Origin: Desulfurococcaceae archaeon MEX13E-LK6-19
GTDB lineage: Archaea; Thermoproteota; Thermoprotei_A; Sulfolobales; Desulfurococcaceae
DNA: 64,000 nucleotides
Reading direction: 5' to 3'
Assembly (NCBI GenBank): GCA_029637525.1
Contig: CP072660.1
Coordinates: forward strand, 893,612-957,611
This document shows, one piece after another, positions 3,668 through 39,817 of this stretch. Within the stretch, counting starts at the first letter, position 1, and each line of letters begins with the position of its first letter. The notes below the pieces were generated by a model. It had not been told where the DNA came from. It searched no databases and saw only the letters and a program-made list of their open reading frames with translations. The translations under genes were made by a program, and so were the position numbers.

Positions 3668-4669
3668 TTACTCCTCTATAGTCTCTTCAAACTTTAATCT
3701 AGCGAACTCACCTTGTTTAATCTTACTGAGAGCCCAGCCGAATCTATCCATGAGCACCAGTATAGCTGCCTGTGGCGGTATTACTCCCCTCTCTGTTATT
3801 ATTGCGTCAATGTACTCGGGAGGAGTTACATCAAATGAGGGATTGAGTACTTCTATGTTTGGATGCTTCTTTATCCACTCTTCACTAACTATTTCTGTTG
3901 GCGGTCTGAACTCTATTGGCACAAGCTCGCCTATTACGGTTGCTGGAGAGAATTTGTACGTCTCTGCCGCGACAAACACTCTTACACGTGCTTCATGAGC
4001 TGCCAAGGCTACTTGACTTGTACCAATCTTGTTTACTACCGCTCCATTACTAGCTATAGTGTCAGCCCCTACAACTACTTGATCTACTTCATGCATTATG
4101 TAGCGGACGGCACTATCAGGTATCTGAGTGGCTGGCACACCTGCTTCAAGTAGATGACGCATAGTTATTCTTCCTTGATAGAATGGCCTTGTCTCAGTAC
4201 TATAGACCTTCCTTATTTTGCCCATTTTGTATGCTGTAACTATTACTGATACCGAGGCAGTACTATGGCAATGAGTTAAAACTACTGCATCATCCTTTAT
4301 TCTGCGAGCACCTATTTCGCCAATCTTCTTTACAGCCTCTAGGCTTTCTTGTATGAATCTATCAGCAGTATTAACTACAGTTTCAATAAGCTCCTTGACG
4401 CTCCCGCGAGCAGTCATTAATCTGTACATAACGTAAAGAACAGCATTGGGAAGACTAACAGCTGTTGGTCTCGTCGAGATTATTAAGTCGGCTATTCGTG
4501 CCATGTATTTCCGGAAGCTCTGTTCATTCATAGGGCCCTTGTACTCTAGTGCTGCAATTTTTAATGCCTCCGCTGCTGCTCGAGCTATTCTCCCAGCTCC
4601 ACGTATTCTCATAGTCTTTATTCCTTCGGCTATCTCGAGAACCTTAGGCGGAACCTCCATTTCAGACAC
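3668..4669 (-). CDS. Ribose-1,5-bisphosphate isomerase (eIF2B alpha-like family)
   Basis: Predicted to convert ribose-1,5-bisphosphate to ribulose-1,5-bisphosphate in the archaeal AMP/nucleoside pathway. It belongs to the eIF2B-alpha/MtnA family. The N-terminus carries MRIRGAGRIARAAAEAL, typical of the archaeal enzyme. The catalytic pair of the family is visible: Cys134 in LTHCHSTA and Asp203 in VGADTIASNGAVVNKIGTS. The C-terminus has FDVTPPEYIDAIITERGVIPP. The length of 333 matches the characterised Thermococcus enzyme (about 322). Its start overlaps the end of the upstream paralogue by eight bases, indicating an operon. Alternative: a true eIF2B-like subunit, less likely because both catalytic residues are kept. 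Confidence 0.85.
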   Translation of the reverse strand: MSEMEVPPKVLEIAEGIKTMRIRGAGRIARAAAEALKIAALEYKGPMNEQSFRKYMARIADLIISTRPTAVSLPNAVLYVMYRLMTARGSVKELIETVVNTADRFIQESLEAVKKIGEIGARRIKDDAVVLTHCHSTASVSVIVTAYKMGKIRKVYSTETRPFYQGRITMRHLLEAGVPATQIPDSAVRYIMHEVDQVVVGADTIASNGAVVNKIGTSQVALAAHEARVRVFVAAETYKFSPATVIGELVPIEFRPPTEIVSEEWIKKHPNIEVLNPSFDVTPPEYIDAIITERGVIPPQAAILVLMDRFGWALSKIKQGEFARLKFEETIEE

Positions 4670-5648
4670 CTTGGTAAATCTGTTTTACTTTTTCTACAAC
4701 CTCTTCTATACTAGGCAAGCTAGGAGGCCAGGAACCATATACTTCCTTTAATACAACAGGTAAGGCTTGTGGAGCGAAAAGCCCTTGCTCTGTAGCAATT
4801 CCATCTATATAGTTTGGTGGTGTTACATCAAATAATGGTGCTCGTGCATTATAGTTTTCGGGCATTGAAGCAAATACATCAGGGCTCATGAGTCTTCTCC
4901 AGTCTCCTTCGGGAAGTTTTACTAGCTCTCCAAATAATGTTTCAATACTAAACTTCGTTGTTGGTGCAATATAGAATACTCTTACCCGTGCCTCATAGGC
5001 AATCAAGCTTATGAGGCTTGAACCGACTTTGCTTATAACAGCACCATTTATTGCCACTGCTTCCGAACCCATTAACACTTTGTCAACATCCTTCATGAAG
5101 TATCTTGCACCAGAGTCTACAATCAATTTTACCTTATGTCCTAGCTCAGCAATTTTTTCAGCCGTAATAAGACCCTCCATCCCGGGTCTAGACTCTGTAA
5201 CATAAACTGTTAATCGTTTACCCTCATTTGCAGCGTATTCAAAAGCTTTTAATACACATATACTCCTGCTATTAGTCATGACTACTTCTCCGTCAAGAAG
5301 TCTTCGTGAAGCTATTAATGCGGCTTCATTACATTCTTCAACAACTTTTCTTCTCCAGAGCTCAATGGATTTAAAGAGGTTTTCTCTAGTCTTATCATAC
5401 ATTATATTGTCCTCATAGCCTTCAGCAATAATCAATCCAAGATCTCTTAATATGTTATGGGCTTGTGCAGAAGTAGGTCTTTCAAGCATTGTTTTCTCGA
5501 CAATGTCTATGAAAGCTCTTGCTAATGACTTATAGTCTGTTGTTTTCTCAAAAGAAGCCCTTATTTCATCGAGAAGCTTTAAGGAGTATTCAGTTGCTGT
5601 AAAACCTATATTAAAACCATGTTTCTTAAGTTCTTCAATAAAATCCAT
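4662..5648 (-). CDS. eIF2B/R15P-isomerase family paralogue lacking the catalytic Cys and Asp
   Basis: 328 residues, homologous along its length to the next gene downstream (FDVTPPNYIDGIATEQGLFAPQALP matches its C-terminus). At the catalytic positions it differs: VVMTNSRSICVL replaces VVLTHCHSTASV, so Ser stands where the Cys is, and MGSEAVAINGAV replaces VGADTIASNGAV, so Glu stands for Asp. The sugar-phosphate fold is therefore kept while isomerase chemistry is probably lost. It could be a regulatory or structural partner forming a hetero-oligomer with the active copy, or an eIF2B-like nucleotide sensor. The eight-base overlap with the active gene favours joint expression. The N-terminal 100 residues are a helical eIF2B-type domain. 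Confidence 0.8.
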   Translation of the reverse strand: MDFIEELKKHGFNIGFTATEYSLKLLDEIRASFEKTTDYKSLARAFIDIVEKTMLERPTSAQAHNILRDLGLIIAEGYEDNIMYDKTRENLFKSIELWRRKVVEECNEAALIASRRLLDGEVVMTNSRSICVLKAFEYAANEGKRLTVYVTESRPGMEGLITAEKIAELGHKVKLIVDSGARYFMKDVDKVLMGSEAVAINGAVISKVGSSLISLIAYEARVRVFYIAPTTKFSIETLFGELVKLPEGDWRRLMSPDVFASMPENYNARAPLFDVTPPNYIDGIATEQGLFAPQALPVVLKEVYGSWPPSLPSIEEVVEKVKQIYQGV

Positions 5649-5708: not shown

Positions 5709-6590
5709 TCAACTCTTTTCTAAAACTAGTGATAAAGCTTTCTCAGCAGCTTCAGAAGGCTTTATGACAACATGTTTTTCTTGTAAACGAGGCTCCCAAT
5801 CAAGCACAAGTACAGGGTTCTTAAGAAGGCTTATTACTGGTGCTGTCTCATATGCCAGTAAACCAGGTACCGTACCATAGACTGCAAGAGCTCTCCTATA
5901 ATCATCTCCTTTATACAACAATATCTTACCGGGAGCAACAACAAATACATAATCGGCCTTTATAGCAGAGGGTATAGGCAATGCAACGTTATTGAAACTC
6001 TCTATAACAAGAACATCTGATTCCTTCTCAAGTCTTTCCTGGATTAGTGCTAAGCCATTAATAATAGTTGGCGACTCAAGTAGTTTGAGAAATATTTGCG
6101 AAGTAGTTTTCATAACGTTCTTTATCTTATTCTTGAGAATTTCAAGGTCAGTTCTTAGGGACTTTATTGTTTTAACATAATTGTCCTCGATCACATAATG
6201 TGTTGTAGTATAAACCTCACCATATGGAAGCGTTATACGGGCCAGCACGGCCTGTTTTTCTAGAAGACTACTATCATCAATATATCTCCTGTAGTCGTTC
6301 TCATAAAGTGATGGATCAGGAGGAGCTAAGAGTATATCAATAGGGGATAGTATCTCTATCATGTTGGTTAAACCAGAAACCCTTGCTAGTTTATAGGCGT
6401 CCTCACCAACTAGTGTACCAAGTTCAATACTATACTTCAATGTATTGTATTGATACCATGCATTATGTCCGCCAACAGGCTTGAAAGGTATTGCTTTAAC
6501 TCCGTACTCCTTTAATAACTCGATCAACTCCATAACCCATGTTGTCTTGCCAGCGTCATACCTTAGCAAACCTATAACCAGTATAATCAT
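5709..6590 (-). CDS. BioD/CobQ-like P-loop ATPase
   Basis: 293 residues with a P-loop at the very N-terminus: VIGLLRYDAGKTTWVMELI. GxxxxxxGKT recalls dethiobiotin synthetase and CobQ-type amidoligase ATPases. Further on are FKPVGGHNAWYQYNT, where BioD-like enzymes bind substrate, and ADYVFVVAPGKILLY near the C-terminus. The middle (about 110-180) is helical. The function is not known to me. The start gives the hydrophobic beta strand of the P-loop as residues 2-6, so no longer start is needed. It lies about 60 bases upstream of the eIF2B-family pair on the same strand; a functional link is not evident. Confidence 0.65.
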   Translation of the reverse strand: MIILVIGLLRYDAGKTTWVMELIELLKEYGVKAIPFKPVGGHNAWYQYNTLKYSIELGTLVGEDAYKLARVSGLTNMIEILSPIDILLAPPDPSLYENDYRRYIDDSSLLEKQAVLARITLPYGEVYTTTHYVIEDNYVKTIKSLRTDLEILKNKIKNVMKTTSQIFLKLLESPTIINGLALIQERLEKESDVLVIESFNNVALPIPSAIKADYVFVVAPGKILLYKGDDYRRALAVYGTVPGLLAYETAPVISLLKNPVLVLDWEPRLQEKHVVIKPSEAAEKALSLVLEKS

Positions 6591-6735
6591 TAACTATCAC
6601 CGTCTCATATCCCTCTTCACGATAGGATATTGTATATTACCTCAATTATATCATGTAGAGAAACCCCAAAGTTAATTTTTAATTTAGTAACCTACATTAC
6701 TATTCCTACTTAGATTGATTCACTGGGTGTAGCCC

Positions 6736-8463
6736 ATGAATAGAGTAGCTGTGTATGCACTAGTAATAGCTTTGCTATTAACGACGTTCGTCTCTCCAGT
6801 ACTTTCATCGGATGAAGTAGAACATGCCTATAAACGAATAGCAGTAATAATAGTTCCTGGGCTTTCTTACAACGATGTCATAAAGTATTACAGTAATTCA
6901 TCAATTATAGACTTGAACAAATCATCAATACTAGAAGTAGAGCCATTCCCGCCATACACTAGTTTATACTATGAACTATCAATAGTCAACGGTATATCAT
7001 GGGATCTAAAGCAAGGAATACCTCTAGCCAATAAAACCCTTTTGGTTCCCGGTGAGAACAAAACCTATGAGCCATGGGTTATAGTTAATCAAAGCATAGT
7101 AGACTATGCTTGGGGGCAATGGAAGACTGTTTTCATAGGTATTCATGGCATAGATGTTAAACGTATAAACAATACAGTTAATTTCGACTACAATATAACG
7201 TACAAGCAAATACCACCAGCACTGTTTACATTAAAGATAAACTCAAGTACAAAGTGGGACTTAATTAATGGAACAATATATCTCTTTGCAGAGAACAATA
7301 CATTAAAGCTTAAGATAGATAATGAGACAAGCGATATTAAAGACAATGTATCATCGATAATAACGCTAAATATAACTAATTCCAAGTACTTAGAACCAGG
7401 ATTATATGACATAAAGTTCTATGTCTTCAAAATAAATAATGAGACCTACAAATTAGTTACACTAGGAACTATAAGGAGAGATCAAGTATTCTCAGCAAAT
7501 ACTATAGGCTTCGACAAACCCATAACACCTCATATACCAGCAGGATTAATGAATGATTTGACGAAAGAGGAGTTCTTATTCCTAGCAAGGGAACTAACAA
7601 AATTCTATAAAGATATAGTCAGTCATGTTTTCACGGAGACAGGGTTAACACAAACGGTGCTAATCAATTACCCGTTAATAGAAGAAGCGGAAAGGATACT
7701 AGTCAGCAGTAACGATGGGGAGTTCAATAATAATCTTACATCGATAATTTACAAAGGCCTTGAAGATCTAGTAGAAACTATATACAACCACTTAGGAAAA
7801 GATGAAACCTTAGTAGTACTATTCTCTCCGTACACCTATACCAAGGCAAACGACACGCTAATAGATATTGAGGCTTCTTCAATAATAACTCCAGGTATAG
7901 TGAAATATAATGATACACTAGTGGATGCGTTATTGAATAATAATATAGAGTTCTCAATAAAAACGATTAATGGTGAGAAAATAATTCTGATAGATAGTGA
8001 TAAAGTGTCGTTTAATAAAATAGTCTATGGCAATGGTGTATTGGTTCTAGTAAACATTGACAAGAAATCCATTGTTGAAACAATTGACTCCAATACAGTA
8101 CTTGGATACATTATGAGTTTATCAAATGTCCTAGGATACGGCGGAGTCTCCCTCTTAGAAAAATATCATAGTTTGAGTGTTGAATACAATAAACTCAAAA
8201 CAGATTATGATATCTTGAATGCGACTGCAGAGGACCTAAAAAGACAAATCAATGACTTAAACAAAGAGCTTGGTGATGTACGAGCCGACTATGAAAATCT
8301 AACTAGCAAACTAGCTGAATTAGAGAAGGAACTGGAAGCAGAAAAGCAGAAAACGAGTTCTCTAACTACGTTCCTGACAGCAGGTATGGCCAGCATTGTA
8401 GTAATAGCAGTTATTTATGGTTTAATAGTGAGAAGTATAGCGAAAGGTGGTAGATCAAAATAA
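6736..8463 (+). CDS. Membrane-anchored extracellular protein with a degenerate alkaline-phosphatase-like domain
   Basis: 575 residues. A signal peptide covers residues 1-24 (MNRVAVYALVIALLLTTF, cut near SSDE). The ectodomain is rich in N-glycosylation sequons (NNT, NGT, NSS, NDT). A coiled coil spans about 470-540 (VEYNKLKTDYDILNATAEDL, then EKELEAEKQ), followed by one membrane helix and a basic tail (RSIAKGGRSK). The start of the mature part, KRIAVIIVPGLSYNDVI, and later KDETLVVLFSPYT resemble strands of alkaline-phosphatase/PglZ-type folds, but the metal ligands are not visible; this is weak inference. GGGTG lies six bases before the ATG. It has no obvious operon partner. Confidence 0.75.
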   Translation: MNRVAVYALVIALLLTTFVSPVLSSDEVEHAYKRIAVIIVPGLSYNDVIKYYSNSSIIDLNKSSILEVEPFPPYTSLYYELSIVNGISWDLKQGIPLANKTLLVPGENKTYEPWVIVNQSIVDYAWGQWKTVFIGIHGIDVKRINNTVNFDYNITYKQIPPALFTLKINSSTKWDLINGTIYLFAENNTLKLKIDNETSDIKDNVSSIITLNITNSKYLEPGLYDIKFYVFKINNETYKLVTLGTIRRDQVFSANTIGFDKPITPHIPAGLMNDLTKEEFLFLARELTKFYKDIVSHVFTETGLTQTVLINYPLIEEAERILVSSNDGEFNNNLTSIIYKGLEDLVETIYNHLGKDETLVVLFSPYTYTKANDTLIDIEASSIITPGIVKYNDTLVDALLNNNIEFSIKTINGEKIILIDSDKVSFNKIVYGNGVLVLVNIDKKSIVETIDSNTVLGYIMSLSNVLGYGGVSLLEKYHSLSVEYNKLKTDYDILNATAEDLKRQINDLNKELGDVRADYENLTSKLAELEKELEAEKQKTSSLTTFLTAGMASIVVIAVIYGLIVRSIAKGGRSK

Positions 8464-9000: not shown

Positions 9001-9084
9001 TTCTTGATACACCTTATCAATACGATATATCTCCAGGAGACTTAATAATGTTGTGGAAACCATGAAAGAAAAATTAAAAACATT

Positions 9085-9093
9085 TTTTATAAA
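9085..9093 (+). promoter_or_regulatory. TATA box of the sRNA candidate at 9119
   Basis: TTTTATAAA about 26-34 bases before the first conserved base of the C/D-like RNA. The spacing fits an archaeal TATA box for a stand-alone RNA gene starting near 9117. Confidence 0.45.
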
Positions 9094-9118
9094 CTAGTTA
9101 CTATGAAACCTAGGACTA

Positions 9119-9180
9119 CGTGGATGAAGAAATACCCCGGAAGCGACCGAAGGCGTGACGAAGTGGTCCTCTGCTGACAC
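9119..9180 (+). ncRNA. C/D-box-like sRNA candidate (variant C box GTGGATGA)
   Basis: A G+C-rich block in an otherwise A+T-rich gap. In order it shows the C-box-like GTGGATGA (ending at 9127), the D'-like CCGA (9147-9150), the C'-like GTGACGA (9155-9161), a 12-base guide-like stretch (9162-9173) and the D box CTGA (9174-9177). Bases GTG before the C core can pair with CAC after the D box, as in a kink-turn stem. A TATA box sits about 30 bases upstream. The same 13-base start recurs at 26593 in front of ogt. The first C box has one mismatch to the consensus and the first guide is long (19 bases), so confidence is moderate. Confidence 0.5.
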
Positions 9181-9231
9181 ACTTTACGAGTTTTGTACCT
9201 TAATTGCCAGTTTGTATACTTACTATAAAAA

Positions 9232-9996
9232 TCATGGTACTATGGAAGTACTGTAAGTGGTCCCCGTTACGATAATCTTTCTTATGTTCTTGTTCGTGTA
9301 GAAACTTAGTTTTGACGCAATTCCATCAAGGAAACCTGTTAATTGCTCTGTAGGAGCGTCTGTTACAAGTATCAACATAATTTCCTTCTCTGTCTCAACA
9401 ATTATAAGCGGGTAATTATCTATTCTTGTTAAGACCATGGGGTTCTTGCCATGTTTTTTCTTGAGTTCATTAATGATGCTATTAGTGATCACGCCTAGAA
9501 GCATTTCTTTAGATAAACTTATTACGCCGCTTTGTTTTTCAAGTTTTTCAGCAATAATGGAATTAGCTTCTTTAATCATGTATAGTATTCTTGATGAAGA
9601 CTCGTCTATGTAATTCTTTAGCTCGGTACGAATGTTCTCTAGTTCCTTCTTTAGGCTCCTAGTACTATCGTTGATGTTCTTAATGATTTCATGTCTCGAC
9701 GCTTCTATTCTATTAATTGCTTCTTTTTGTTCCTGTGATAGTGTATCGAGTCTTCTTGTAACGTTATCAGACATACTTGATAGTTCATTACGTAATTCCT
9801 CGGATATGTATGATACTCTTGTTATGATATCGTGTGTTTTCATTATTATTGGTGACAAATCCTGTATTGTCTTGGTGTTATCTTTTATCTCCTCTAGGTA
9901 TTGTACAATTGATGCTAAGGCCATGTTTATGTCGTTTATTTTCCTGTTTAGGTCATTGATGCGTGCCATCAAGTTTTTATCTTTAGAGCCTGTCAT
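9232..9996 (-). CDS. Long coiled-coil protein, partner of the 1106-residue beta-domain protein
   Basis: 254 residues. About 1-175 is nearly continuous heptad-like helix (INDLNRKINDINMALASIVQ, then RLDTLSQEQKEAINRIEASR and ILYMIKEANSIIAEKLEKQ). The last 75 residues form a small alpha/beta domain with NYPLIIVETEKEIMLILVTD and IRKIIVTGTTYSTSIVP. There is no signal peptide or membrane span, so it is cytoplasmic or peripheral. Its start overlaps the stop of the giant upstream gene by one base (TAATG), which strongly suggests coupled translation and one complex. I do not recognise the C-terminal domain; it could be an oligomer cap or ligand-binding module. Confidence 0.7.
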   Translation of the reverse strand: MTGSKDKNLMARINDLNRKINDINMALASIVQYLEEIKDNTKTIQDLSPIIMKTHDIITRVSYISEELRNELSSMSDNVTRRLDTLSQEQKEAINRIEASRHEIIKNINDSTRSLKKELENIRTELKNYIDESSSRILYMIKEANSIIAEKLEKQSGVISLSKEMLLGVITNSIINELKKKHGKNPMVLTRIDNYPLIIVETEKEIMLILVTDAPTEQLTGFLDGIASKLSFYTNKNIRKIIVTGTTYSTSIVP

Positions 9997-12900
9997 TAGA
10001 CTACACCTCTAGATAATTCTTTTAGATCATGGATTGTCATGCCCTTGAAAAGAGGCTTAGAGTAATCAGGTGCTTTATAGTCTCTATATACAATGTATCG
10101 AGTTATTATGGCTGCGGCAAGACTTGCTTTAGGCTCGCTTATGTTCTTTAGTATGTTTCTTAGGTAAGGAGCAAACCTCATGTTCAATAGAGTTTTCCAG
10201 CCGCCTGCAGCTAGGGCAAACATTAAACTATCTATATTCTTGTTTTTAATGAGATACTCTATTGCACCATAATTGTAGATAGGTTTTCCGGAAAGTAATG
10301 TATACATTACCATTAAATCTCCTATTAACGGATCCTTTGGTAATAGAGGCTCGCTATAGGGGTTTAAAAGCAGTTTTCTTATCTGCGAGTAGATCATGCT
10401 TGGATTCATTATTACTCTATCTCTCTTTAGCGGAATTATTGCTTGAGGGGCTTCTATTGACTCAATAATTTCAATTAATTTATCATAGTCACGTTCACTA
10501 CACGCCATTGTGTAACGACATAGAGTGAGTGCCCAAGCAAGCTCCATGAATATAATGAAGTCTTTTTGCGAACTCACGTATCTAGACACGCTTTCGTTAA
10601 TGACCTTCTTAATATAGTCTACGTTTCCATTGGGAGTCATTGATTCGATAATGTATTTTGCTAAGAGACTATAGAAATCAATCGGGTAAGATATTCTTCG
10701 TCTATGAATACTATCAATTGCTTCTTTTGCGATACTGTATAGTATTCTTGACGCCTCATAAGGTGTTCCGCAATCAAGAGGATTATCGGATATTGGTAAC
10801 AATACCTCGGCCCAGCCGTTGGGTAATATTGTGTGCGGATATTGTCTTATACATTCATAATCGTAAGACCTTGGTGGATAGAATATGTCAACAAATACCT
10901 GGGGCTCAATAGCAACATTGATTTCCTCTTTAATTACATCGCTAGAACCGGGTATTGATGCCGTTAGTTCAACGACTCTATTTTCTTGAAGACTATATGG
11001 TATGTCAATTACGAGTCTTAATCTTGTCTGGTACTTACCTTCTAGCGTGATCCCTGTAAGCTCGTTTGACTGTAGTGTGCCAGTGTTATAGAATGGTTTG
11101 ATATCTCTCGATCTTGCGGAGAGTTTTATTCCAGAAACCTGTTTATGTGATATATTGGATAATTTAACATCTATAGTCTTAACATTGTATTCTTCATTAA
11201 AGACTATCTTAACCGGGGGATACGGGTTTTTCACGTTAATTTGTTTTTCACTAACTATTATACGAAGCGGGTAATCTGCGGTAAACTCTTTCTCGATTAC
11301 AACTTCTCTACCGCTATATTGTTTGTCTCCTACTATGTGTACTGGCGTATATGTTAGACTTACGACAGCTCTATCTTTTCTAGGAATAATCACGGTAAAT
11401 GTTTCAGAACTACTTGTTCCTAGACCTGGTTCCATGAACAAGGAGCCTTTTACTATACGTTCTTGTTTGTTTCCACTTATGAACAATATGTTATCAATGG
11501 CTTTTAGTTCGTAAATAATCTTTGGCGCGATATGGGTTTGATTGATAAAACTTATTTTCAGTGTCAGTGGTATGCCTGTGAACACGTCTTCGGCAATGGT
11601 TATTTCAGCTGATACTAGAGGCTCTATTATCTCATTAATCGTATCTATAGAATCTTCATAGGCTTCATCGCGGACAAATATTGTTGCTTTACCAGGTTTC
11701 TCGGCTGTACAGGGGATTTCGTAGATGCTTCTACCAGGATCTAATAATAATTCCCTGCTATGTAGCCTGATATTGTCAGAAGAATCTATTTCTACTTTAA
11801 GTTGTTTATCGAAATTATTTACTACTTCAAGTAAAAGTCTTGCATTTTCTCCGATAACAACTTTCTCTCCGCCTAAAGGAGATATTATTTTGGCCGAGAG
11901 GAGCTTGAAACGAGGTATAACTTCTACTTTCAGTTCGAACTTATCTTCGTAAAGCACGACGTTCCTATTCAGTACTCTCACGGTTATAGGGATCGTGAAT
12001 ACACCGGTTTCTAAGCCAGCAATCTTTATGCTTATTGGGGTAGTCTTATTGGCATCAAGATCTCTAGATTCAATATCTACATCTACTTGTGGAGGAGCTA
12101 GGGCGTTTATTTCTGGTTTGAGTATTATACTTGTAGGATTAGTTATTAGTAATCCTGTGGAAGCTTCTTCGCCATGAATAATTTTTAATTCTTTATCAAT
12201 TAATTCTATTTTTATTTCTGGTCTCGTTAATGGTGGGAGTTTTGTTAATTCTATGCTGTATGTTATTGGCTCGAAAGACTCTATTTGTTCTTCAACAACG
12301 ACTTCACCTTTTTCATCACTAAGTACATCAAGCTCTGTAGTTACAACAACTTCTCCTTCGGGATCTATTGTTGTTTGTACTGTTGATTCAGAGCCATAGG
12401 CTTTAATGTATAGTTTAATATTTACAGGTGACATGAAATCTTCATTTATTATCTTAAAGAATAATTTTACCCGTGAACCAGGGATAAGTAATCCTTCAGC
12501 CCAATGATCAACTATTTTTGTCCGTGGCGGTTTAACTACTTTAACAGGGATGGTGATTTTTTCTTCATAACCAGTTACTTCATCAATGGCGTGGACGATA
12601 ATATTGTCTCCTTCCTCAGTAAATTTTAGAAGAAGCTTATCGTATACAGGTTTATGCGCATCAACAATGTAGTCTTTAACGATGGGCTCACCAGGGTACT
12701 TTACGACTAATCTAATCTTATTGTTAAGGTAAGGCTTTATTGCAATACGTAGATCAACTTGATCGCCAATGAAAAACGCCTTTTGCTCATAGCCTTCTTT
12801 AATCCTGAGACCGGCTTCTAAAGTATATGGTGGGACTATGGATAATTCTAGTATTTCGCTCAAAAGCTTGTTTTCTTTTTCTTCCTTTTGGAGTTTATAG

Positions 12901-13316
12901 CTAACTTCTATGGGGATGCTTTCTTTCTTAGCTATTGTCTCGGGGCTGTAGAATATCGTCATTTCTATGGAGAATGTATCTTCAGCTTTTCCCTTCTTTA
13001 CAGTAATAGGTAGGATTATTTCAAGTTGTTCTGGTGTCGATGTTCTGCTCACGTTTCCTGGTAGTATCTTTCCTTTATCATCGTACTTAGGCTCCGATAA
13101 TCTATAATCTATGATTCCATGTAGCGGATTACCAAGTTTTAGAATTATATCGAAATTATCTATACATTTTCCAAACATTTTCGTACAGACGTATTTGAAT
13201 GAAATACTTACCCTAGCTACTTCAACGGCACCAGCACCATAAACTACATGATCAACAAGCTTTTCTATATTTACGTTAAACGTCAAAGGCTGCGACATGT
13301 TCATCATCTTGAACAC
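9996..13316 (-). CDS. Giant (1106-residue) tandem beta-sandwich protein without signal peptide
   Basis: I do not recognise this protein. Residues 1 to about 790 are almost entirely beta-strand and look like seven to nine CARDB/Ig-like repeats. The recurring pattern is a strand, an LRIAIKP- or LLLEVVNN-like core and a threonine- or valine-rich end strand (GEKVVIGENARLLLEVVN, then GIPLTLKISFINQTHI). Residues about 830-1106 switch to an all-helical domain (EASRILYSIAKEAIDSIHRR, then FIIFMELAWALTLCRYTMA). No signal peptide or membrane helix is visible, which is odd for such repeats, usually found on exported proteins. Cysteines near residue 49 (VCTKMFGKCID) could form a disulfide or bind metal. 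Its stop overlaps the start of the coiled-coil gene. Confidence 0.75.
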   Translation of the reverse strand: MFKMMNMSQPLTFNVNIEKLVDHVVYGAGAVEVARVSISFKYVCTKMFGKCIDNFDIILKLGNPLHGIIDYRLSEPKYDDKGKILPGNVSRTSTPEQLEIILPITVKKGKAEDTFSIEMTIFYSPETIAKKESIPIEVSYKLQKEEKENKLLSEILELSIVPPYTLEAGLRIKEGYEQKAFFIGDQVDLRIAIKPYLNNKIRLVVKYPGEPIVKDYIVDAHKPVYDKLLLKFTEEGDNIIVHAIDEVTGYEEKITIPVKVVKPPRTKIVDHWAEGLLIPGSRVKLFFKIINEDFMSPVNIKLYIKAYGSESTVQTTIDPEGEVVVTTELDVLSDEKGEVVVEEQIESFEPITYSIELTKLPPLTRPEIKIELIDKELKIIHGEEASTGLLITNPTSIILKPEINALAPPQVDVDIESRDLDANKTTPISIKIAGLETGVFTIPITVRVLNRNVVLYEDKFELKVEVIPRFKLLSAKIISPLGGEKVVIGENARLLLEVVNNFDKQLKVEIDSSDNIRLHSRELLLDPGRSIYEIPCTAEKPGKATIFVRDEAYEDSIDTINEIIEPLVSAEITIAEDVFTGIPLTLKISFINQTHIAPKIIYELKAIDNILFISGNKQERIVKGSLFMEPGLGTSSSETFTVIIPRKDRAVVSLTYTPVHIVGDKQYSGREVVIEKEFTADYPLRIIVSEKQINVKNPYPPVKIVFNEEYNVKTIDVKLSNISHKQVSGIKLSARSRDIKPFYNTGTLQSNELTGITLEGKYQTRLRLVIDIPYSLQENRVVELTASIPGSSDVIKEEINVAIEPQVFVDIFYPPRSYDYECIRQYPHTILPNGWAEVLLPISDNPLDCGTPYEASRILYSIAKEAIDSIHRRRISYPIDFYSLLAKYIIESMTPNGNVDYIKKVINESVSRYVSSQKDFIIFMELAWALTLCRYTMACSERDYDKLIEIIESIEAPQAIIPLKRDRVIMNPSMIYSQIRKLLLNPYSEPLLPKDPLIGDLMVMYTLLSGKPIYNYGAIEYLIKNKNIDSLMFALAAGGWKTLLNMRFAPYLRNILKNISEPKASLAAAIITRYIVYRDYKAPDYSKPLFKGMTIHDLKELSRGVV

Positions 13317-13407
13317 TATATCTTACTTTGTAAATAAACTTGTCCCTAGAACATATTAACTATATCCTGTTCTTGCCTAAATTACATGAATTCTTGAACC
13401 TAAGTAT

Positions 13408-15854: not shown

Positions 15855-16577
15855 ATGTGTGGTGTACTTAGCGGTATGGAAGCTGGTACTGTGAGGATGA
15901 TTATTGAGGAGGTTTTGAAGAGGAACAAGGTTACCATAGATGATTTATCTAAGACTCTTCACATATCGAAGGAAGTTGTTTCACTAGCGTTAAGGCTTAT
16001 TCCGGGTATTTCATTAAAGAATGGCAGTGTTGTTGTGGAGAATAAGTTAGTACTCGTTATTGAGGGTATTAAGCGGGGTTTGCCTGTAAAGAGGCTTTCG
16101 CGTTATGTTGACTGGAGAGACTTCGAGAAATTGTCTGCAGAGATCCTCTCTAGCCATGGTTATAGTGTTTATACAAATGTGTTAATGACCAAGCCTATTA
16201 GGCTTGAAATAGATGTTGTTGGCGTCGATATTGGCTCTGGTAGAGCTATTGTTGTTGATTGTAAACACTGGATCCATGGTTTATCTCCGTCAATGCTCTA
16301 TGATGTCGGAAGAAAACATATCGAGAGAACAGTGAAGTTTCTAAAGTACATTGACTGGATTACAAGAAAATATCCTCTCCTAAAGAAAGTAAAATACGCC
16401 GTACCGGTCATAGTTACTTTAACCACGCCTAAAATAAGAACAGTAGATCGACGTGTTGTGATAGTCAATATAGGCGAGTTCAATAACTTTCTTCAAGACA
16501 TACATCTTGTTCTCGATGAATTAGGTATAGAAACTATAGCAAGAGAAAACACTGGGACACTGGAATCTCTTCTCTAA
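15855..16577 (+). CDS. Predicted PD-(D/E)XK nuclease with N-terminal helix-turn-helix (Mrr-like)
   Basis: 240 residues. The N-terminal third is a small helical domain (VTIDDLSKTLHISKEVVSLA) like a winged helix. The middle resembles Mrr-type restriction-endonuclease folds: DWRDFEKLSAEILSSHGY, then LEIDVVGVDIGSGRAIVVDC ending in KHW. The D...(x)VDCK pattern supplies the metal-binding Asp and the Asp/Lys of a PD-(D/E)XK site, with Cys adjoining. It could be a DNA repair or defence nuclease; no modification gene is nearby, so a classical restriction role is unlikely. Alternative starts are ATG at 15855 or at 15876 (MEAGTVRM). Confidence 0.72.
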   Translation: MCGVLSGMEAGTVRMIIEEVLKRNKVTIDDLSKTLHISKEVVSLALRLIPGISLKNGSVVVENKLVLVIEGIKRGLPVKRLSRYVDWRDFEKLSAEILSSHGYSVYTNVLMTKPIRLEIDVVGVDIGSGRAIVVDCKHWIHGLSPSMLYDVGRKHIERTVKFLKYIDWITRKYPLLKKVKYAVPVIVTLTTPKIRTVDRRVVIVNIGEFNNFLQDIHLVLDELGIETIARENTGTLESLL

Positions 16578-17308
16578 ATCAATGAATCTATATTCTTGTA
16601 AAGCACTATAAACGCGTGTATGGAGTGATACAAGCTTACACCGGCCATCAAGGCTATACCTGCCAATACAAGATATGCTATCACAGGACTGACTCCTAAT
16701 GCCTCGGTTATCTCCTGGATTTCGCTTGGAGAAGTACAGGCGTAGGCCACATAGTATAAAGCTATGGAGTCTATGAAGACGATGAGTGGAAGAAGTATTG
16801 AAGCTATTACTGCTCCTAGTTTTCTCCTAGCTCTAAACGCATGTATCGATATAAGCATTGGGAAGAGTAGGAAACCTATTAGAATTCCTGCTCCCTGGAA
16901 GAATAATGGCGTCAATATTATTGCCAGTACAAATGCGAGAATGTACTTCTTATAGGCTCTTCTTACAATAGTTATCTTACCCGAGAAATCATAATAGGCT
17001 GCGGAAGCATATGAGCGGAGTAAGCTTATTCTGTGTGCAAGTTCGCTAGGTCTTTGAACAAGTTTTGTTATTTCTCTTAAAATACTACGTGATGCCTTAA
17101 GCAGTTTCTCTGCTAGAAGAACGTTACTGTACTTCATTTCCTTCAAGGACATGTCTATGTATTTGAGAGCTTCTTCTAGGTTCTTTTTTGTTTTAAAAGA
17201 AATTTTAGGAGGTAAAAGACCTTGTTTAGAAAAATAATCTATTTTTTCCATGATTTTCTGGATACTGTTCTTCGTATCTAGTAGTAGTTCATTGGGGTTT
17301 TTGCTCAC
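16574..17308 (-). CDS. Multi-span membrane protein coupled to the transporter operon
   Basis: 244 residues if begun at the GTG at 17308, which overlaps the stop of the 36-residue membrane peptide (GTGA) and follows GAGGAAG. A longer frame runs to 17425 but would overlap that peptide. The N-terminal half is soluble, helical and basic (about 1-125). Four hydrophobic segments follow: AFVLAIILTPLFF, ILIGFLLFPMLISI, VIASILLPLIVFIDSIAL and VIAYLVLAGIALMAGV. I do not recognise the family. Its last bases overlap the nuclease stop by four bases on the opposite strand. Coupling suggests an accessory function for the sodium-dependent transporter. Confidence 0.7.
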   Translation of the reverse strand: MSKNPNELLLDTKNSIQKIMEKIDYFSKQGLLPPKISFKTKKNLEEALKYIDMSLKEMKYSNVLLAEKLLKASRSILREITKLVQRPSELAHRISLLRSYASAAYYDFSGKITIVRRAYKKYILAFVLAIILTPLFFQGAGILIGFLLFPMLISIHAFRARRKLGAVIASILLPLIVFIDSIALYYVAYACTSPSEIQEITEALGVSPVIAYLVLAGIALMAGVSLYHSIHAFIVLYKNIDSLI

Positions 17309-17415
17309 TCTTTCTTCCTCTTGGAAACTTTTAGCCATTTTATACCAACAAACGCCAGCAGTAGAAATACTATTCCCCAGCCGATTGCAAGGAACACGAG
17401 TGCTTCGAAGGCCAT
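17305..17415 (-). CDS. 36-residue single-span membrane peptide, MetS-like transporter subunit
   Basis: A short gene not found by length-based calling. It begins MAFEALVFLAIGWGIVFLLL and ends with a basic tail VSKRKKE, giving one membrane helix with a positive C-terminus. It starts 11 bases after the transporter stop, behind GGGTGAT. Its stop overlaps the GTG start of the next membrane gene. Bacterial NSS-family methionine/alanine carriers (MetP) need a small membrane partner, MetS, encoded directly downstream. Position, size and topology fit the same role here. The homology itself is inferred, since such peptides are too short to prove by eye. Confidence 0.72.
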   Translation of the reverse strand: MAFEALVFLAIGWGIVFLLLAFVGIKWLKVSKRKKE

Positions 17416-17426
17416 GGCTTATCACC

Positions 17427-28145: not shown

Positions 28146-28246
28146 GTTGTATGGTCTGTTCGTTCTTTTTTCAATGATCAATTAAGTAATAATTATATAG
28201 CAACGCTGTTGAAATAATAAGATAAGATATTCTGGGGTTGATTGTT

Positions 28247-30664
28247 ATGAGTAAGAAATACATGAGTATACTATCATTGATCTTTGTCTTCATATTAGTT
28301 ACTTCATTTATGCCAGTAATCCATACAGAGACACAATTAGAGACGATACCAGAACTACCAGGCCTCGATTCAATGCCTGGAGAAACACTGGCCAAGAATG
28401 TTACTCTAGGAAAACCAGCTGTGGTATTTCCTGGAGACTCATTTACAATAGAGTTCAAAGCTCCTGTCGATGCGTCAACAGGTTATATCTATGGCGTCTT
28501 TGCTGAAGACGATCATCTTGTTGTCAGAAACTACACGGTAACCGTGGTAGCTCACACAGAATCCAACACAACCACGATAACATTACCAGAAGACGTTGAG
28601 CCGGGTCTTTATGACCTAGTACTTGTTGGGAGCAGTGTCGTTGAATTACCACGTAGCGTCTGGGTAATAACAGAAGAAACACTAGCAAAGCTCTTTATAG
28701 CACATGTAAGTGATCAGCATTATGGCTCAGGTGAACCAGACACAATTACTGGTCAGTACAAGAGATTCGCTGGACAAATGCTCATAAACCTGCTTGGTGT
28801 AGACGCTGTATTCGTGACGGGAGATGAAGCCGATGGTGCCGCAGAACCAGAGTACAAGTATAGTGTAGGGTTTAGAACAAGCTTCCTATACTCAATACCA
28901 TTCTTCATAGTACCAGGAAACCATGATTGGCCATTGAAACACTTCCTAAGATTCTACGGTGACGATAAATGGTATAGAGTTATTGGCGGTAAGTATCTAA
29001 TCATAGGAATGGATACTAGAGATGAAGGATATCCTACAGAAGACCAAATGAGATGGCTCGAAGGAATACTGAAAGAGTACAAGGACATACCAATAAAAAT
29101 AGTAATGATGCACCACCCAGTATTCTACTACCAGGGAACACTAGAAATAAGCTCAAGCGATCCGATCCTGCAAACAGACCCACATACGAACCCCGACAAC
29201 CCATTAAGCTACTATTGGGGTGCAAACACAACCATAGCAACATGGTTCCTTAGATTATGTGAAGACTATAAGATAACATTGGTACTAGCAGGACACATTC
29301 ATAGAGACCAATACGTAAAATTTGTATCAACAAGAACTGGTACAACAACATACTTCATCACAACAACAACATTTGCACAAAGCAGACCCAACTACAACGG
29401 ATTCATAGCATTCGAAATATCTAGCGATGGGAGCATATCATTCCCGATCAAGATGCCAACATTTGTTGGTTTCGATGACGTTGATAGGAGAAGAGTATAC
29501 AATTCTATATCACTTGATCCAGAATGGGACAAGTACTTCTTCGGACATGTATATGAGGCACCTCACGCCTATAGATTCGATCTAATAAACAACCTTAGTA
29601 TAATAGATGTATCAAGAAAGGTGATCATATCACTACCATGGGCTGGTCCAGCATTCTCCAAAGAGTTGTCAGCTACTAATGGAGGCTCCATAAAAGTACT
29701 TGACATGAAAGTAATTGGTAACAGACTATACGCCCTGTTAGACATTAATCTGCCAGGTAATGGAAGTACGGTAGAGTTTGTCTTCTACAATATGCCAGAC
29801 TACTTCCCGCCTAGCGTAGACATATTATTCTTTGGTACGCCAGAAACAGGAAAAACCAATATGATCTTCGTGACAGTAAATGACGGCGAATGGGGTCTTG
29901 TGAAAATCTCTGGATACCTCATGTTAGGAGATACAATTGTTAACCTCAAGAAGTATAGTGCAGATACGTATATGGTAACAATTAGTGTACCGTCATCTGA
30001 CCAGCCTATTGAAGGAATACTTCACGTAGAAGCCGTAGATGCAGCAGGAAATATACTGTCAAGAAACTTCACTATAACATTCTATCCACCAGGCCAAGCT
30101 CCATCACCGTCTACACATACGTTAAACATTAGCATTACAATAGAAGGAGTAGAGAAAACACCATTAGCGAAAATAGCTATTGCATCAAACACATTCTATA
30201 AACTATACGACTTAGAGAGCACTGTGCTAAGTCTTGAATTACCTGAGGGAGTATACGAGATAACGGTAATACCTACTGAAGGTAATACAACAGACTTCCT
30301 AGGAAACTTTAGTTTCATTAAATGGGTTGTAGGAGAAACAGAATCAACCGAGCCATCAATAACTATAAACTTAACAAGTGACATAACTCTACAGTTATAC
30401 TTTGAAACACATGAACTACCATTACCAACAACTACAACCACTACGACCACTACTACAACCACGACTACAACTACTACGACAACCACTACAACTACAACAA
30501 CTACTACGACTACGACCACCACTACAACGACAACTACAACAACCACGACCACAACAACTACAACGACACCACCAGCACCAGGAGTCAACATAGGACTAAT
30601 AGCAGCAGCAATCATAATAATCATAATAATAATTGCTGTAGCACTTTACCTAAAAAGAAAGTAA
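28247..30664 (+). CDS. Cell-surface metallophosphoesterase on a threonine stalk
   Basis: About 805 residues. Signal peptide MSKKYMSILSLIFVFILVTS; beta-rich domain to about 150; calcineurin-like phosphoesterase core with the dimetal motifs SDQHYG, VTGDEADG (GDLVD in most relatives), VPGNHDWP, MMHHPVFY and LAGHIHRDQ. Beta domains follow. Then comes an uninterrupted run of 47 threonines, one membrane helix (IAAAIIIIIIIIAVALYL) and KRK. So it is an extracellular phosphatase or nucleotidase held off the membrane by a probably O-glycosylated stalk. A TTG nine bases upstream is the longer start; GGGG spacing favours the ATG at 28247. The substrate is unknown. Confidence 0.88.
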   Translation: MSKKYMSILSLIFVFILVTSFMPVIHTETQLETIPELPGLDSMPGETLAKNVTLGKPAVVFPGDSFTIEFKAPVDASTGYIYGVFAEDDHLVVRNYTVTVVAHTESNTTTITLPEDVEPGLYDLVLVGSSVVELPRSVWVITEETLAKLFIAHVSDQHYGSGEPDTITGQYKRFAGQMLINLLGVDAVFVTGDEADGAAEPEYKYSVGFRTSFLYSIPFFIVPGNHDWPLKHFLRFYGDDKWYRVIGGKYLIIGMDTRDEGYPTEDQMRWLEGILKEYKDIPIKIVMMHHPVFYYQGTLEISSSDPILQTDPHTNPDNPLSYYWGANTTIATWFLRLCEDYKITLVLAGHIHRDQYVKFVSTRTGTTTYFITTTTFAQSRPNYNGFIAFEISSDGSISFPIKMPTFVGFDDVDRRRVYNSISLDPEWDKYFFGHVYEAPHAYRFDLINNLSIIDVSRKVIISLPWAGPAFSKELSATNGGSIKVLDMKVIGNRLYALLDINLPGNGSTVEFVFYNMPDYFPPSVDILFFGTPETGKTNMIFVTVNDGEWGLVKISGYLMLGDTIVNLKKYSADTYMVTISVPSSDQPIEGILHVEAVDAAGNILSRNFTITFYPPGQAPSPSTHTLNISITIEGVEKTPLAKIAIASNTFYKLYDLESTVLSLELPEGVYEITVIPTEGNTTDFLGNFSFIKWVVGETESTEPSITINLTSDITLQLYFETHELPLPTTTTTTTTTTTTTTTTTTTTTTTTTTTTTTTTTTTTTTTTTTTTTTTPPAPGVNIGLIAAAIIIIIIIIAVALYLKRK
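30428..30568 (+). repeat. 47-codon threonine homopolymer
   Basis: Forty-seven consecutive ACN codons. All four codons (ACA, ACT, ACC, ACG) are mixed irregularly, so the DNA is not a simple microsatellite; the amino acid is what is conserved. It forms the stalk between ectodomain and membrane anchor of the phosphoesterase. Confidence 0.95.
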
Positions 30665-34380: not shown

Positions 34381-36204
34381 CTACTTCTTTTTAGTTAATA
34401 GATATGCTGCAATAATAATCACTAGCAACACTATAGCACCTATCACTGGATAATACCTTGATATGTCTGCGGCTGTCGTGGTTGTTGTGGTTGTAGTTGT
34501 TGTCGTGGTTGTCGTCGTGGTCGTTGTTGTGGTAGTTGTCGTGGTTGTTGTAGTAGTTGGTGTTTCTGTTGTTGGGCTTGTTGTCGTCGTGGTTGTGGTT
34601 GTAGTTGTTGTAGTGGTTGTAGTTGTGGTGGTTATTACGAGTTCGCCGGAAAGTATTTGTTGTAATAAGTCATATACGTGTTGATACTTTTCTCTAGCTT
34701 TCTCTTCCCATGTACTCTTGAGCTGGTTCCATATAGTGGCATCGCCTAGGTATGGGTTAATCTTTATAGCATATTCTTCAGTAAATGTTACTGTTTCACC
34801 GGTAATCGGGTCAGTGAATTCAAGAGGCTTTACAAGCTCGTTGACAAGGAAGTTGAATTCTACTTCAGTTATTTCTCCATCTAGATATGCTTTGGCTATT
34901 TCTGACCATACATCTTGTAGGTCATCGTGTGCATCTACTAGTGTTGCTTTGAAGTATGTTTGCATCGCCTTTTCCCAGAGTTCGGCGAGTGTTTCATTAA
35001 ATTGTATTACGCTTGCTGTTGTTGCAGCTTCGTATGCAGCTTTTAGATCGGGTCTTTGTTGTCCAGCTTGTGTGTCAAATACTTTTTCGTTAATCGGTAA
35101 TCTGTTGATGTCTGAGTCAAGCCATAATTGTTGTCCACCGTATTCGCTTAATACCCATGCAATGAATGCTGCTGCGTGTATCTTGTGTTTTGAACCTTTT
35201 AGAAGTGCTATTGGGTCAGCGTTTACAATACTTTCTCCTTGTGGTATAATGTATTCACAGTCGGGGTTCTGATGCATTGCTGTATAACCGTAGAAGTCGA
35301 TTGTTATGCCTATAGCTATTTCGCCTATGATTACGCCGTCTCTTACAGCACTACTTGAGTCATAGATCTTGGCGTTGGCTGCCATTAGTGTTAGTACTTT
35401 CCATCCTTCCTCCCATCCATAGGCTTGTAGTATGATTTCATACATTCTAGTATTGCTGGTGCTCATGAAGGGATCTGCTATGCCTACTAATGGTGTGGTG
35501 GGTAGATATCTTGCCAGTAATGGGGATGTCAAGTCGCTCCATTTTTCTGGTTTGAAGTCAGCTAAACCGAATTCTTCTAGTTTCTTGTGGTTAACAGTAA
35601 ATCCGAAGCTACTTATTGCGGCACCGACCCAGTGTATTATCCCGTTTTCGTCATAAGATTTTGTTGGTGCACCCGCAAGGGTGTCATTGATTTTTGATGC
35701 CTCATAGAGGATAGCATAGTAGGCCGGATTCTGGTTTGGATCAAGTGGTTCTATGAGTCCCTCTTTGTCTATTATGTTGAATAGTGTTGGGCCGCCTCCC
35801 CATGCTATATCGTATGGATTACCGCTTTCTTCAGCCTTCTTTATTGTGTCGATCCATAAGGCTGGTCCAACGCTTCGAAGAACTATGTCTACTATACCAA
35901 GCTTTTTAGCTACCTCGCTTTGCAGAAACTCTACTCTTGCTTTCTCTAGTATAGTTGCTTCGTGTCTTGATATCACCGTCAATACAACGTCTCTTTCTGT
36001 AGTTAAGCTGGCAAGATAGTCAAGCCAGGGGAATGGTTCTGTAGCATTACCCCAAGGCCACTCGTTGTCCTGTAAAATAGTTTTGTTTTTAATGGTATTT
36101 ATGGTAGTTGGAGTTGATGCATAAGTAATATTTGCTGGTATGCTTGCAAGTATTGCCAATAATAGTAAGCTACATAGTATGTATCCTGATTTCAGCTTAG
36201 CCAA
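34381..36204 (-). CDS. ABC transporter solute-binding protein on a threonine stalk
   Basis: About 607 residues. Signal peptide MAKLKSGYILCSLLLLAILA; a family-1/Fe3+-type solute-binding fold at about 50-510 (ERDVVLTVISRHEATILEKA, then NPYDIAWGGGPTLFNI and VNADPIALLKGSKHKIHAAA). A stalk of two threonine blocks split by SPTTETP follows, then one membrane helix and a KKK tail. Anchoring by a C-terminal helix and Thr stalk is typical for archaeal binding proteins. The TTG start at 36204 follows GGGTGAT; the GTG at 36213 is within that signal. The ligand is unknown. The promoter contains a 7-base-arm inverted repeat at 36248-36268. Confidence 0.88.
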   Translation of the reverse strand: MAKLKSGYILCSLLLLAILASIPANITYASTPTTINTIKNKTILQDNEWPWGNATEPFPWLDYLASLTTERDVVLTVISRHEATILEKARVEFLQSEVAKKLGIVDIVLRSVGPALWIDTIKKAEESGNPYDIAWGGGPTLFNIIDKEGLIEPLDPNQNPAYYAILYEASKINDTLAGAPTKSYDENGIIHWVGAAISSFGFTVNHKKLEEFGLADFKPEKWSDLTSPLLARYLPTTPLVGIADPFMSTSNTRMYEIILQAYGWEEGWKVLTLMAANAKIYDSSSAVRDGVIIGEIAIGITIDFYGYTAMHQNPDCEYIIPQGESIVNADPIALLKGSKHKIHAAAFIAWVLSEYGGQQLWLDSDINRLPINEKVFDTQAGQQRPDLKAAYEAATTASVIQFNETLAELWEKAMQTYFKATLVDAHDDLQDVWSEIAKAYLDGEITEVEFNFLVNELVKPLEFTDPITGETVTFTEEYAIKINPYLGDATIWNQLKSTWEEKAREKYQHVYDLLQQILSGELVITTTTTTTTTTTTTTTTTTSPTTETPTTTTTTTTTTTTTTTTTTTTTTTTTTTTAADISRYYPVIGAIVLLVIIIAAYLLTKKK

Positions 36205-36247
36205 ATTAATCACCCAAGGGCAGAGTTTCCTCTAAAATATATATTTA

Positions 36248-36462: not shown

Positions 36463-39400
36463 TTAATTCTTTTTAAGGCGTACAATGAGTTTCAGTGTTT
36501 TAATTTCGTATGGCTTAAGTTTTAATGTTATTTTTTGTTCATTTACTTCATGCTCTCCTAGTATTTGTGTTTCTATGATGTTTGTTTCCAATATTTTCTC
36601 TATTGGCGCTGGTATTTTTAGTAGTATTGATGCCTCGGCTTTGCTTAAATTACATATCCTGATTAGGTATCCTTCTTTATCTTCAGACTTCTTTACAGTT
36701 CCAAGCTCTATGTTTGAAGCAGGTGTTATTTCTAGTAATGTGTAGCTCTTTATTGGTTCTCCTCTAATGTTGTGGTTCTTTGGATATATCACTTTTAGTG
36801 GTGACCATACCTCGAGGGCTTTGTTTGGCACCTTTCCTTTCATCCAGTCTCCTTGGTGCGGGTATAGGTGATATGTAAACTCTTCTTGACCCAGGTCACT
36901 CCATGGATTCGGGAATATTGGTGATTTTAATAGGCTTAAGCCTATTTTTGATCCTATGGCACTGTATCCATGTCTTGCGGGAGATATTATTGCTACACCA
37001 TATATTCCGTCGGATACGTCAGCCCATCTGAGTGCTGGTACTTCGAATTTTGCTTTTTCCCAGGAGGTATTCCTTTGTGATGATCTCTCGATGACTCCGT
37101 ATGGTATTTCATAGTGTACGGTTTTGTTGTTTACATTTATGTTGAACCAAGCTTTAACAAGTACTAGCTTGTCTTTCCAGTCGATTATGTTCTTGAAATC
37201 AATTACTTTTGAAGACTTGTAAATGCATATTCTTTGTTTAATTCTTGATTTTCCGAAGCCTTTCGTGTATTCTATACATCCTACTATTGGGCCATCGCAT
37301 ACTATTCTTGGTTTTTCAAGTACGGAGAGTTCTTCGCCGTACGAGAGAAAGTCTTCATCAACATCCCATGCGTCGAAGATGTTAGGACGATCTGGGTGAG
37401 CTATTAGTACATTGCTTTTATCTTTGATCATTTCCCTGGAGTATTCTTTATCAAATAACGATACAAGCTCTCCTTTACTATTTATTTTAACTCTTATCTT
37501 TTCGTTTTCTAGAACTAAATCATCGCCTTCATGGAATACTCTTACTCCACCTTTTTTGTCGGCTTTTTTAGTGGTTAACCTATAGACAACGTACCCTAGT
37601 GGTGGTATGTTGTCTACATATACGTAGGTTTTTCCTTCGAATGATTGACACTCCAAAGGATTGCCATTAAGATCTTCCAAGCAGACATTATCGAGATCTA
37701 ATATTATAACACCGCTTCTAGGCCAAGGGAGATCATTGTATATAATGATCTCGTCTTTTCCGGCAACAGGGCTTAAAGACGTGTCAATTATGTTTTTGGC
37801 TTCATTAATAACCTTTCTTAGATCATCTATCGCGTAATCATACGTCTCCTTAACCGATGAACCTGGTAAGACATCATGGAATTGGTGCAAGAGGACTCTT
37901 TTCCAAAGAGACTCAATTTTATCCATAGGGTACTGCTTAAGCCCTAAGACCTCAGCTATGGTGGATGCTATTTCGGCTGACCTTAGGAGAGACTCGGCTT
38001 CCGCCATTAATTTCTTGATTGTAAGATTTGTTGTATAGGTCCCCCTATGCATTTCTAGGTAAAGCTCGTCAGTCCATATGGGAACTCTATTTTTGATCTC
38101 CTTTACTTTTTTGATGTATTCCTCCTCGTCTATGCTCTTGATCTGAGGGATAAGTGGTAATTTATTAATGAACTCTATGTTCTCGATCATCTCTAGTGTT
38201 GGACCGCCTCCTCCATCTCCGTATCCATATGATACTATTGAGAACGGAGCTTCATTCTTATTGTTGTATTTTTTCCAATAATTATATATTCTATCAGGGG
38301 TCAGTATTTCATTATAATTAGTAATTATTATTTGCACGGGGATTTTTGTTCCATCAATTCCTTCCCAAATAAATGTATGGTAGGGAAATTTGTTGATCTG
38401 ATTCCACATAACCTTATGTGTTATAAACACTTCTATACCGCTTTTCTTCATTATCTGGGGAAGCGATGCTGGGAAGCCGAAGGTGTCTGGGAGCCATCCT
38501 ATTTTTGCTATTTTACCGAATTTTTCTAGGAAGTACTTCTGTCCATAAAGAAACTGTCTGGCGATAGATTCCCCTGTTATGAGTTGTACATCGCTTTCAA
38601 CCCACATGCCTCCAACAGGAATCCATTTATTTTTGTTTATAAACTCCCTTATCTTCGAGAATAATTCTTTATCAATATCTTCAATCCATTTATAATATTG
38701 TGCACTACTTTGGACAAATGTTATATTGGGGTAAAGTTCAAGATACCTTACTATTGTGGAAAATGTCCTTAGTAATTTTCTTTTTGTTTCATTGTAAGAC
38801 CAAAGCCATGCAGCATCTATATGACTATGACCACAAATGTAAAGTAGTCCTCGGTTAGGGTACTTTTTTCGCAACTTTTCAAGTCCTTTGTAGAGTTCCT
38901 CTTCTATTCGAGTTGCTTCATTTACAACGCTCTCCATAGAGGGCATAGTGAGATCTTCATAGAGGTTTTCAAGGATGTACTTACCGTAGAGACCAGCAAG
39001 GGCCTTGTGATCCCATGATGGTGTAATAAGATCCTCACGTTGAAATTCATTTAGATGCAATGGTGTATACAGCAATATTAGTGCTAATGTTACTTGTTTT
39101 ATATTTGGCACTATTCTTGTTCTTAACATAATGTCTGTGAGAAGTGAAGTCAATTCCTCTCGCAGCTCATCATTAGCTGGTAAAGATTCAATAAATTTAG
39201 TAAGGCTAAGCACTCTATTAGCAACAATATATGGTTTCCAGGCAACACCTATGAGTAAAGCAGTTTTAAACTCAAAATACAGATCAATGTATCCAAACAG
39301 CTTACGTGGTGAGAGAATTAATTCGACGACGCTATGGCCTGGTCTAATAGGTATATAAGTATGTACATCATCTATTCCAGACCATGTTGTTCCATTTATT

Positions 39401-39624: not shown

Positions 39625-39817
39625 ATGTACTATCGTACCTCCATGCCATCTAGCATCATTTTGAAGTGGTGTTTTGTTAGACAATAAAAAACTTGCGGAG
39701 GAGAGCATAAATATCCACTTAAAGTATAACAATATTATATTCTCCATTAAATAATTAGTTCTGATAATTCTGAATGATAAGTTCATATATATAGTGATAT
39801 GATCTGTTATGCGTAGG

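Follow-up and report, generated by a model that had tools for sequence, protein, structure and literature searches.

Two tightly linked, previously undescribed genes of a heat-loving archaeon, predicted to encode an Ig-like chain and its coiled-coil partner

Introduction

Long chains of Ig-like domains are mostly extracellular. An Ig-like chain of the length considered here inside a prokaryotic cell is unusual, and in the present case it comes with a strictly co-occurring partner. The window analysed is a stretch of 64,000 nucleotides (G000:C1:893612-957611) within a 1.91 Mb archaeal genome, coded G000. The genes in question, A and B, are two tightly linked and previously undescribed genes of this heat-loving archaeon (Table 1).

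The gene pair and its locus

An ORF check located A and B at the coordinates of Table 1, and full-length homologues of both rule out that they are spurious reading frames. The stop codon of A and the start codon of B overlap by one base (TAATG, read from the sequence). The open frame of A comprises 1108 residues, and the gene starts 91 bp after tiaS. Because a TATA-like box precedes the candidate starts of A by about 18-36 bp, the gene may have a promoter of its own, with this box as the candidate element. The GC content of A-B is 35-38%, versus about 42% over the upstream tiaS/DHPS genes.

Table 1. Features of the A-B locus, in window positions.
Feature	Position	Strand	Description
Protein A	9996..13316	-	1106 aa; about seven beta domains in a chain, Cys linker, helical C-terminus; export signal not seen
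A residues 10-163	12828..13289	-	N-terminal beta region; Cys44 and Cys51 invariant; low model confidence
A residues 164-804	10905..12827	-	another six beta domains, of which the model shows residues 260-680 as Ig-like sandwiches
A residues 805-850	10767..10904	-	linker with invariant Cys822 and Cys849-Gly850; best conserved stretch
A residues 851-1106	9999..10766	-	helical domain; pLDDT mostly below 50
Protein B	9232..9996	-	254 aa; one-base overlap with A
B residues 4-182	9451..9987	-	long helix, coiled-coil-like
B residues 187-252	9241..9438	-	alpha/beta head; nuclease-like in fold, catalytic residues not conserved
tiaS-A intergenic gap	13317..13407	.	one edge of probable insertion
B-ydjM intergenic gap	9064..9231	.	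other edge of probable insertion
TATA-like box tttattta	13331..13338	-	upstream of A; sequence reading

The gene order of the window without A-B, that is tiaS, ydjM, the homologue of a 575-aa protein and further genes past it, is kept in G001, G003 and G013, which belong to three genera of the same family and have tiaS-ydjM distances of 86, 100 and 348 bp, respectively; in G006 the order downstream differs. Since these three related genera keep the locus without A-B, the pair probably entered G000 as a unit. A two-gene insertion is most simply the account of its presence, the alternative being repeated loss in the relatives. A viral origin was discarded, as two viral-contig scans gave no relative and PHROGs returned just a coiled-coil match for B.

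Other genes of the window were also inspected. Beside the DHPS gene, 15855-16577 (+) encodes a nuclease-like protein of the Mrr type, which scores 25.6 bits against Mrr_cat, whose cut-off is 21; similar proteins adjoin DHPS in G001 and G003, which gives the gene the look of a core gene and not of a restriction island. Gene 16574-17425 (-) encodes a protein that has a helical N-terminal half and several transmembrane segments, with no Pfam match at cut-off. Two adjacent paralogous eIF2B-like genes (3668-4669 and 4662-5648, both on the minus strand) are also in tandem in G001, G003 and G013.

Distribution and divergence of the pair

A profile search of genome contigs with the A sequence alone gave no match, and a search with a three-protein alignment returned two MAGs (loci L050 in G135 and L051 in G078). 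In the set of 214 genomes of the order, a two-sequence profile found A in six, which span six genera and five families. A six-sequence profile detected no further full-length A in the class or in the phylum sample; the phylum sample gave single-domain matches.

The profile of B matched 136 genomes. The six A genomes did so at E 1.6e-53 or better with the head covered, whereas, among the matches listed, those outside the A genomes were at 9.5e-13 or weaker and covered the coil alone. The phyletic profile, named in the preliminary description as a check on the pair, is thus one of strict co-occurrence: A and head-bearing B are in the same six genomes and none of the 214 has just one of them, among the matches listed and with a B profile trained on the six A genomes, so that the test is not fully independent. 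For two of the B proteins, those of G078 and G173, the initial detection came from a four-sequence profile searched in the A genomes only. Under uniform chance the co-occurrence figure is 1e-11, a value that ignores the relatedness of the genomes and the training of the B profile. The two genes are adjacent in four of the six genomes (G000, G026, G077 and G135), with overlaps of 1-8 bp or a gap of 2 bp; they are 9.7 kb apart in G078 and on different contigs in G173.

The homologues of A and B are 17-22% identical, with near-constant domain lengths. With the domain boundaries set as described below, pairwise identities along A average 15-24% for each beta domain and 29% for the Cys linker, and domain lengths vary little.

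Domain structure of proteins A and B

The domain boundaries of A given in Table 1 were set by reading strand clusters and proline-rich linkers. An AF2 model built on three sequences places one beta sandwich after another over residues 260-680, at fair to good confidence; elsewhere it is poor (mean pLDDT 54). The preliminary description had the last part of A as helical; the helices are present in the model, although with low confidence there. Cys44, Cys51, Cys822 and Cys849-Gly are invariant in the alignment of six A proteins.

The window protein matches no family in Pfam, NCBIfam, PADLOC or PHROGs. Its homologues show sub-threshold Pfam matches to Ig-like families (e.g. ASH, CFAP74/65 and Transglut_C). 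A is an Ig-like repeat protein that diverges fast, but no fn3 family attains its cut-off. In PDB profile searches the matches of A, and those of the GTPase and GTPase partner described below, were all weak. The CARDB domains formerly ascribed to A did not hold up: the window protein has no Pfam family, and CARDB is absent from the six homologues at E 10. Foldseek on the model of A retrieved Ig-like chains from ciliary central-apparatus proteins and from TEP/A2M/complement (TM about 0.1), generic matches that would indicate the kind of domain and assign no family.

The second of these groups suggests that A could be an archaeal trap of the alpha-2-macroglobulin/complement kind, its helical domain being of thioester type. 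Both share a beta-sandwich chain and a helical domain, and A carries its invariant Cys-Gly where the helical domain begins. However, the thioester motif CGEQ is absent, Cys-Gly being followed by TP, SL, DL, RP, PN or KP, and A has neither a signal peptide nor a Pfam A2M match. On the domain order, the Foldseek E is about 1e-14 but the TM value about 0.1, and the helical part has a pLDDT mostly below 50. The identification with alpha-2-macroglobulin was rejected on the missing motif, and the trap reading is highly improbable.

Protein B had been described as a long coiled coil with a small alpha/beta head, encoded with a one-base overlap, and the TAATG junction and the AF2 model bear this out. 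The model, built on two sequences, has one helix up to residue 182 followed by a beta-beta-beta-alpha-beta-beta head. Structure prediction of each protein, then, yields beta sandwiches with a helical end for A and a helix with a head for B. The best solved-structure match of the head is the archaeal splicing endonuclease 3ajv (probability 0.99 but a weak E of 0.02), and Hjc resolvases come further down the list (TMt 0.40-0.46). The likeness to EndA/TSEN and Hjc would be one of fold; unlike these enzymes, the head is joined to a coiled coil and has no conserved catalytic residues, with only M1, T234 and P254 invariant over six B proteins. The coiled coil also has matches in Pfam, NCBIfam and PADLOC, all of a generic kind.

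Localisation

Export was assessed by the maximum Kyte-Doolittle hydropathy over a 19-residue stretch, with four exported proteins encoded in the window as controls. A reaches 1.40 and B 1.31 by this measure, versus 2.4-3.4 for the controls, and none of five further A and three further B homologues exceeds 1.76. Hydropathy therefore reveals no signal peptide or transmembrane segment in any of the six A or the four B proteins, although the measure alone is not decisive, as the membrane coiled-coil homologue of G135 scores only 1.65. For A, the claim that it has neither signal peptide nor anchor is sustained by its low hydropathy relative to the exported controls and by the open frame, which ends about two codons upstream of the GTG. 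A leader overlooked by eye and a clear homology of the pair to a known secretion or surface system had been named beforehand as counter-evidence; neither was found. A CARDB or exported chain was rejected on the absent profile match and the absent leader. That A-B is an intracellular coupled pair, as originally suggested, gains from the missing export signal by hydropathy, from the co-occurrence and from the tight adjacency in four of six genomes. The two proteins would form a complex.

The habitual location of long Ig-like chains outside cells, together with a weak PDB profile match of A to S-layer proteins (E 0.0042), would fit a surface or secretion component leaving by a non-classical route. 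This reading is improbable in view of six A homologues without signal or anchor and of cassette partners that are cytosolic.

Three exported proteins of the window (28238-30664, 34381-36213 and 39872-41938) have Thr-rich stretches before a C-terminal transmembrane segment and are, by reading, phosphoesterase-like, solute-binding-like and of no recognised kind. Beside their genes are those of ABC transporters and, at 36463-39786, an alpha-mannosidase-like gene.

Signalling cassettes around homologous pairs

In G026 and G135 the pair belongs to a cassette encoding a kinase, A, B, a GTPase, a GTPase partner, an FHA protein (assigned by reading in G135), a coiled coil and a transmembrane coiled coil. 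The kinase, whose gene immediately precedes A in two genomes, has 1967 aa in G026 and 1959 aa in G135, and its C-terminal protein kinase domain is the sole part seen by Pfam; by reading, it has a propeller-like start, a long helical middle and an Ig-like stretch. P-loop, DxxGE and TKFD motifs are visible in the GTPase. Between the two cassettes the GTPase is 61% identical and its partner 43%, versus 22% for A, whose divergence is thus much the faster. The GTPase family is found in G026 and G135 only among the 214 genomes, full-length relatives of the kinase are confined to the same two, and so is the membrane coiled coil among the six A-B genomes.

Profile searches found neither the cassette GTPase nor the transmembrane coiled coil in the window genome. 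A Hanks-type kinase partner was also discarded there, since PF00069 yields Bud32 beside Kae1 and one weak match. In G078 the gene of a WD40-kinase separates B from A, G000 has no gene of this kind beside A, and the G077 contig is just 7.6 kb. The signalling context is therefore optional, and the kinase/GTPase link is not general across A-B pairs.

Several further genes of these genomes were noted. MoxR/DUF58-like genes adjoin A in G078, in this one genome only. The same genome encodes two large kinases with WD40-like propellers (L054:1850-5956 and L016:3875-6538); one of the two has a membrane anchor and seems to expose its propeller outside the cell. In G173 a 508-aa ORF about 5 kb upstream is putatively kinase-like by reading. 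Just beyond the GTPase cassette of G026 are two adjacent exported, TM-anchored proteins (L004:3629-6079 and 6142-7455), the first with a WD40 propeller, which are possibly outside receptors.

The kinase/GTPase/FHA cassettes around two homologous pairs make a scaffold or tether role plausible; the cytoskeleton-like part of the original idea is speculative. If the kinase and GTPase neighbours were incidental, the role of A-B could be purely structural, as a tether or cytoskeleton-like element that takes no part in signalling. The near-constant domain lengths of a ruler-like chain, the long coiled coil and the lack of the GTPase in four of the six A-B genomes agree with this, whereas a sporadic distribution and fast divergence are unlike those of a core structural protein and, in two genomes, a kinase gene immediately precedes A; we consider it quite unlikely.

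A model for the A-B pair

We propose, with a probability of roughly 45%, that A-B is an obligate cytosolic module which passes as a unit from one archaeal lineage to another and acts as a fast-evolving scaffold or sensor. In the model, A would consist of about seven Ig-like domains in a row, with a helical domain at the end. The coiled coil of B probably oligomerises, holding and presenting A, and its catalytically dead nuclease-like head would serve as a docking surface. A would bind a target, B would cluster it and the partners would read the event. These partners would be, in two genomes, the large kinase, the FHA protein, the GTPase with its partner and the membrane-anchored coiled coil and, in the genome of the window, other host proteins. 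The sequence of A might change fast because its surfaces bind variable targets. Going further, A-B might be central to a class of intracellular scaffolds not yet described in archaea, in which an Ig-like ruler and the coiled-coil partner that clusters it by way of its coil, and that bears a pseudo-nuclease head, form a horizontally spreading two-gene unit that plugs into different signalling cassettes; we put this forward tentatively, as a doubtful extension. If A-B does sense or scaffold something, it would offer a small testable system in hyperthermophilic archaea.

Comparison with known systems

The preliminary description knew no described system of this shape, which holds for the pair; the fuller cassettes do resemble a published one. 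Ciliary central-apparatus arrays of the ASH/HYDIN type are, like A, long cytosolic Ig-like chains and provide the top Foldseek and weak Pfam matches, but they are eukaryotic ciliary proteins, and the match of A is sub-threshold in sequence and of a generic fold. In Sulfolobus, ArnA-ArnB is an FHA/vWA phospho-signalling system with a kinase-FHA phospho-regulated complex (PMC6509490, PMC12852372). Compared by cassette gene content, it shares kinase and FHA genes with two A-B cassettes and differs in that no vWA gene was noticed in those of G026 and G135.

The closest organisation is that of the GTPase-centric systems described by Kaur et al. 2020, which combine a DO-GTPase and GAP1 with a rapidly evolving FNIII-repeat component and a kinase theme (PMC7159879). 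The cassettes of G026 and G135 likewise have a P-loop GTPase whose partner is encoded immediately downstream. They also contain a kinase, coiled coils, a membrane component and a repeat protein of beta sandwiches that evolves fast and has helices at its end. They differ in that FHA and B are outside the published core and A is Ig/ASH-like, not recognised FNIII; the A-B copy of the window, moreover, has no GTPase, and no DO-GTPase was found in its genome. The cassette GTPases score 14-15 bits against PF19993 (DO-GTPase2), whose cut-off is 27, and the GTPase partner (258/260 aa) gives no GAP1 match in Pfam at E 10. Membership in the DO-GTPase/GAP1 systems was rejected on these grounds, and the likeness, drawn by analogy, is one of organisation only.

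The layout of the two cassettes, the rapid evolution of A and the published FNIII-repeat and kinase themes could still be read as the marks of a pair that is satellite to a genuine conflict (defence) system of DO-GTPase/GAP1 type, with A as invader sensor and the window pair as a remnant or an orphan that borrows effectors. This is unlikely, given the GTPase scores and the unmatched GAP1, the absence of a PADLOC match for A and a window locus that is not a defence island. On the best reading, A-B would be a fast-evolving mobile scaffold or sensor working much as the FNIII-repeat component does in the GTPase-centric systems, and the GTPase/kinase/FHA cassettes would extend GTPase-centred signalling or conflict systems, in altered form, to these archaea.
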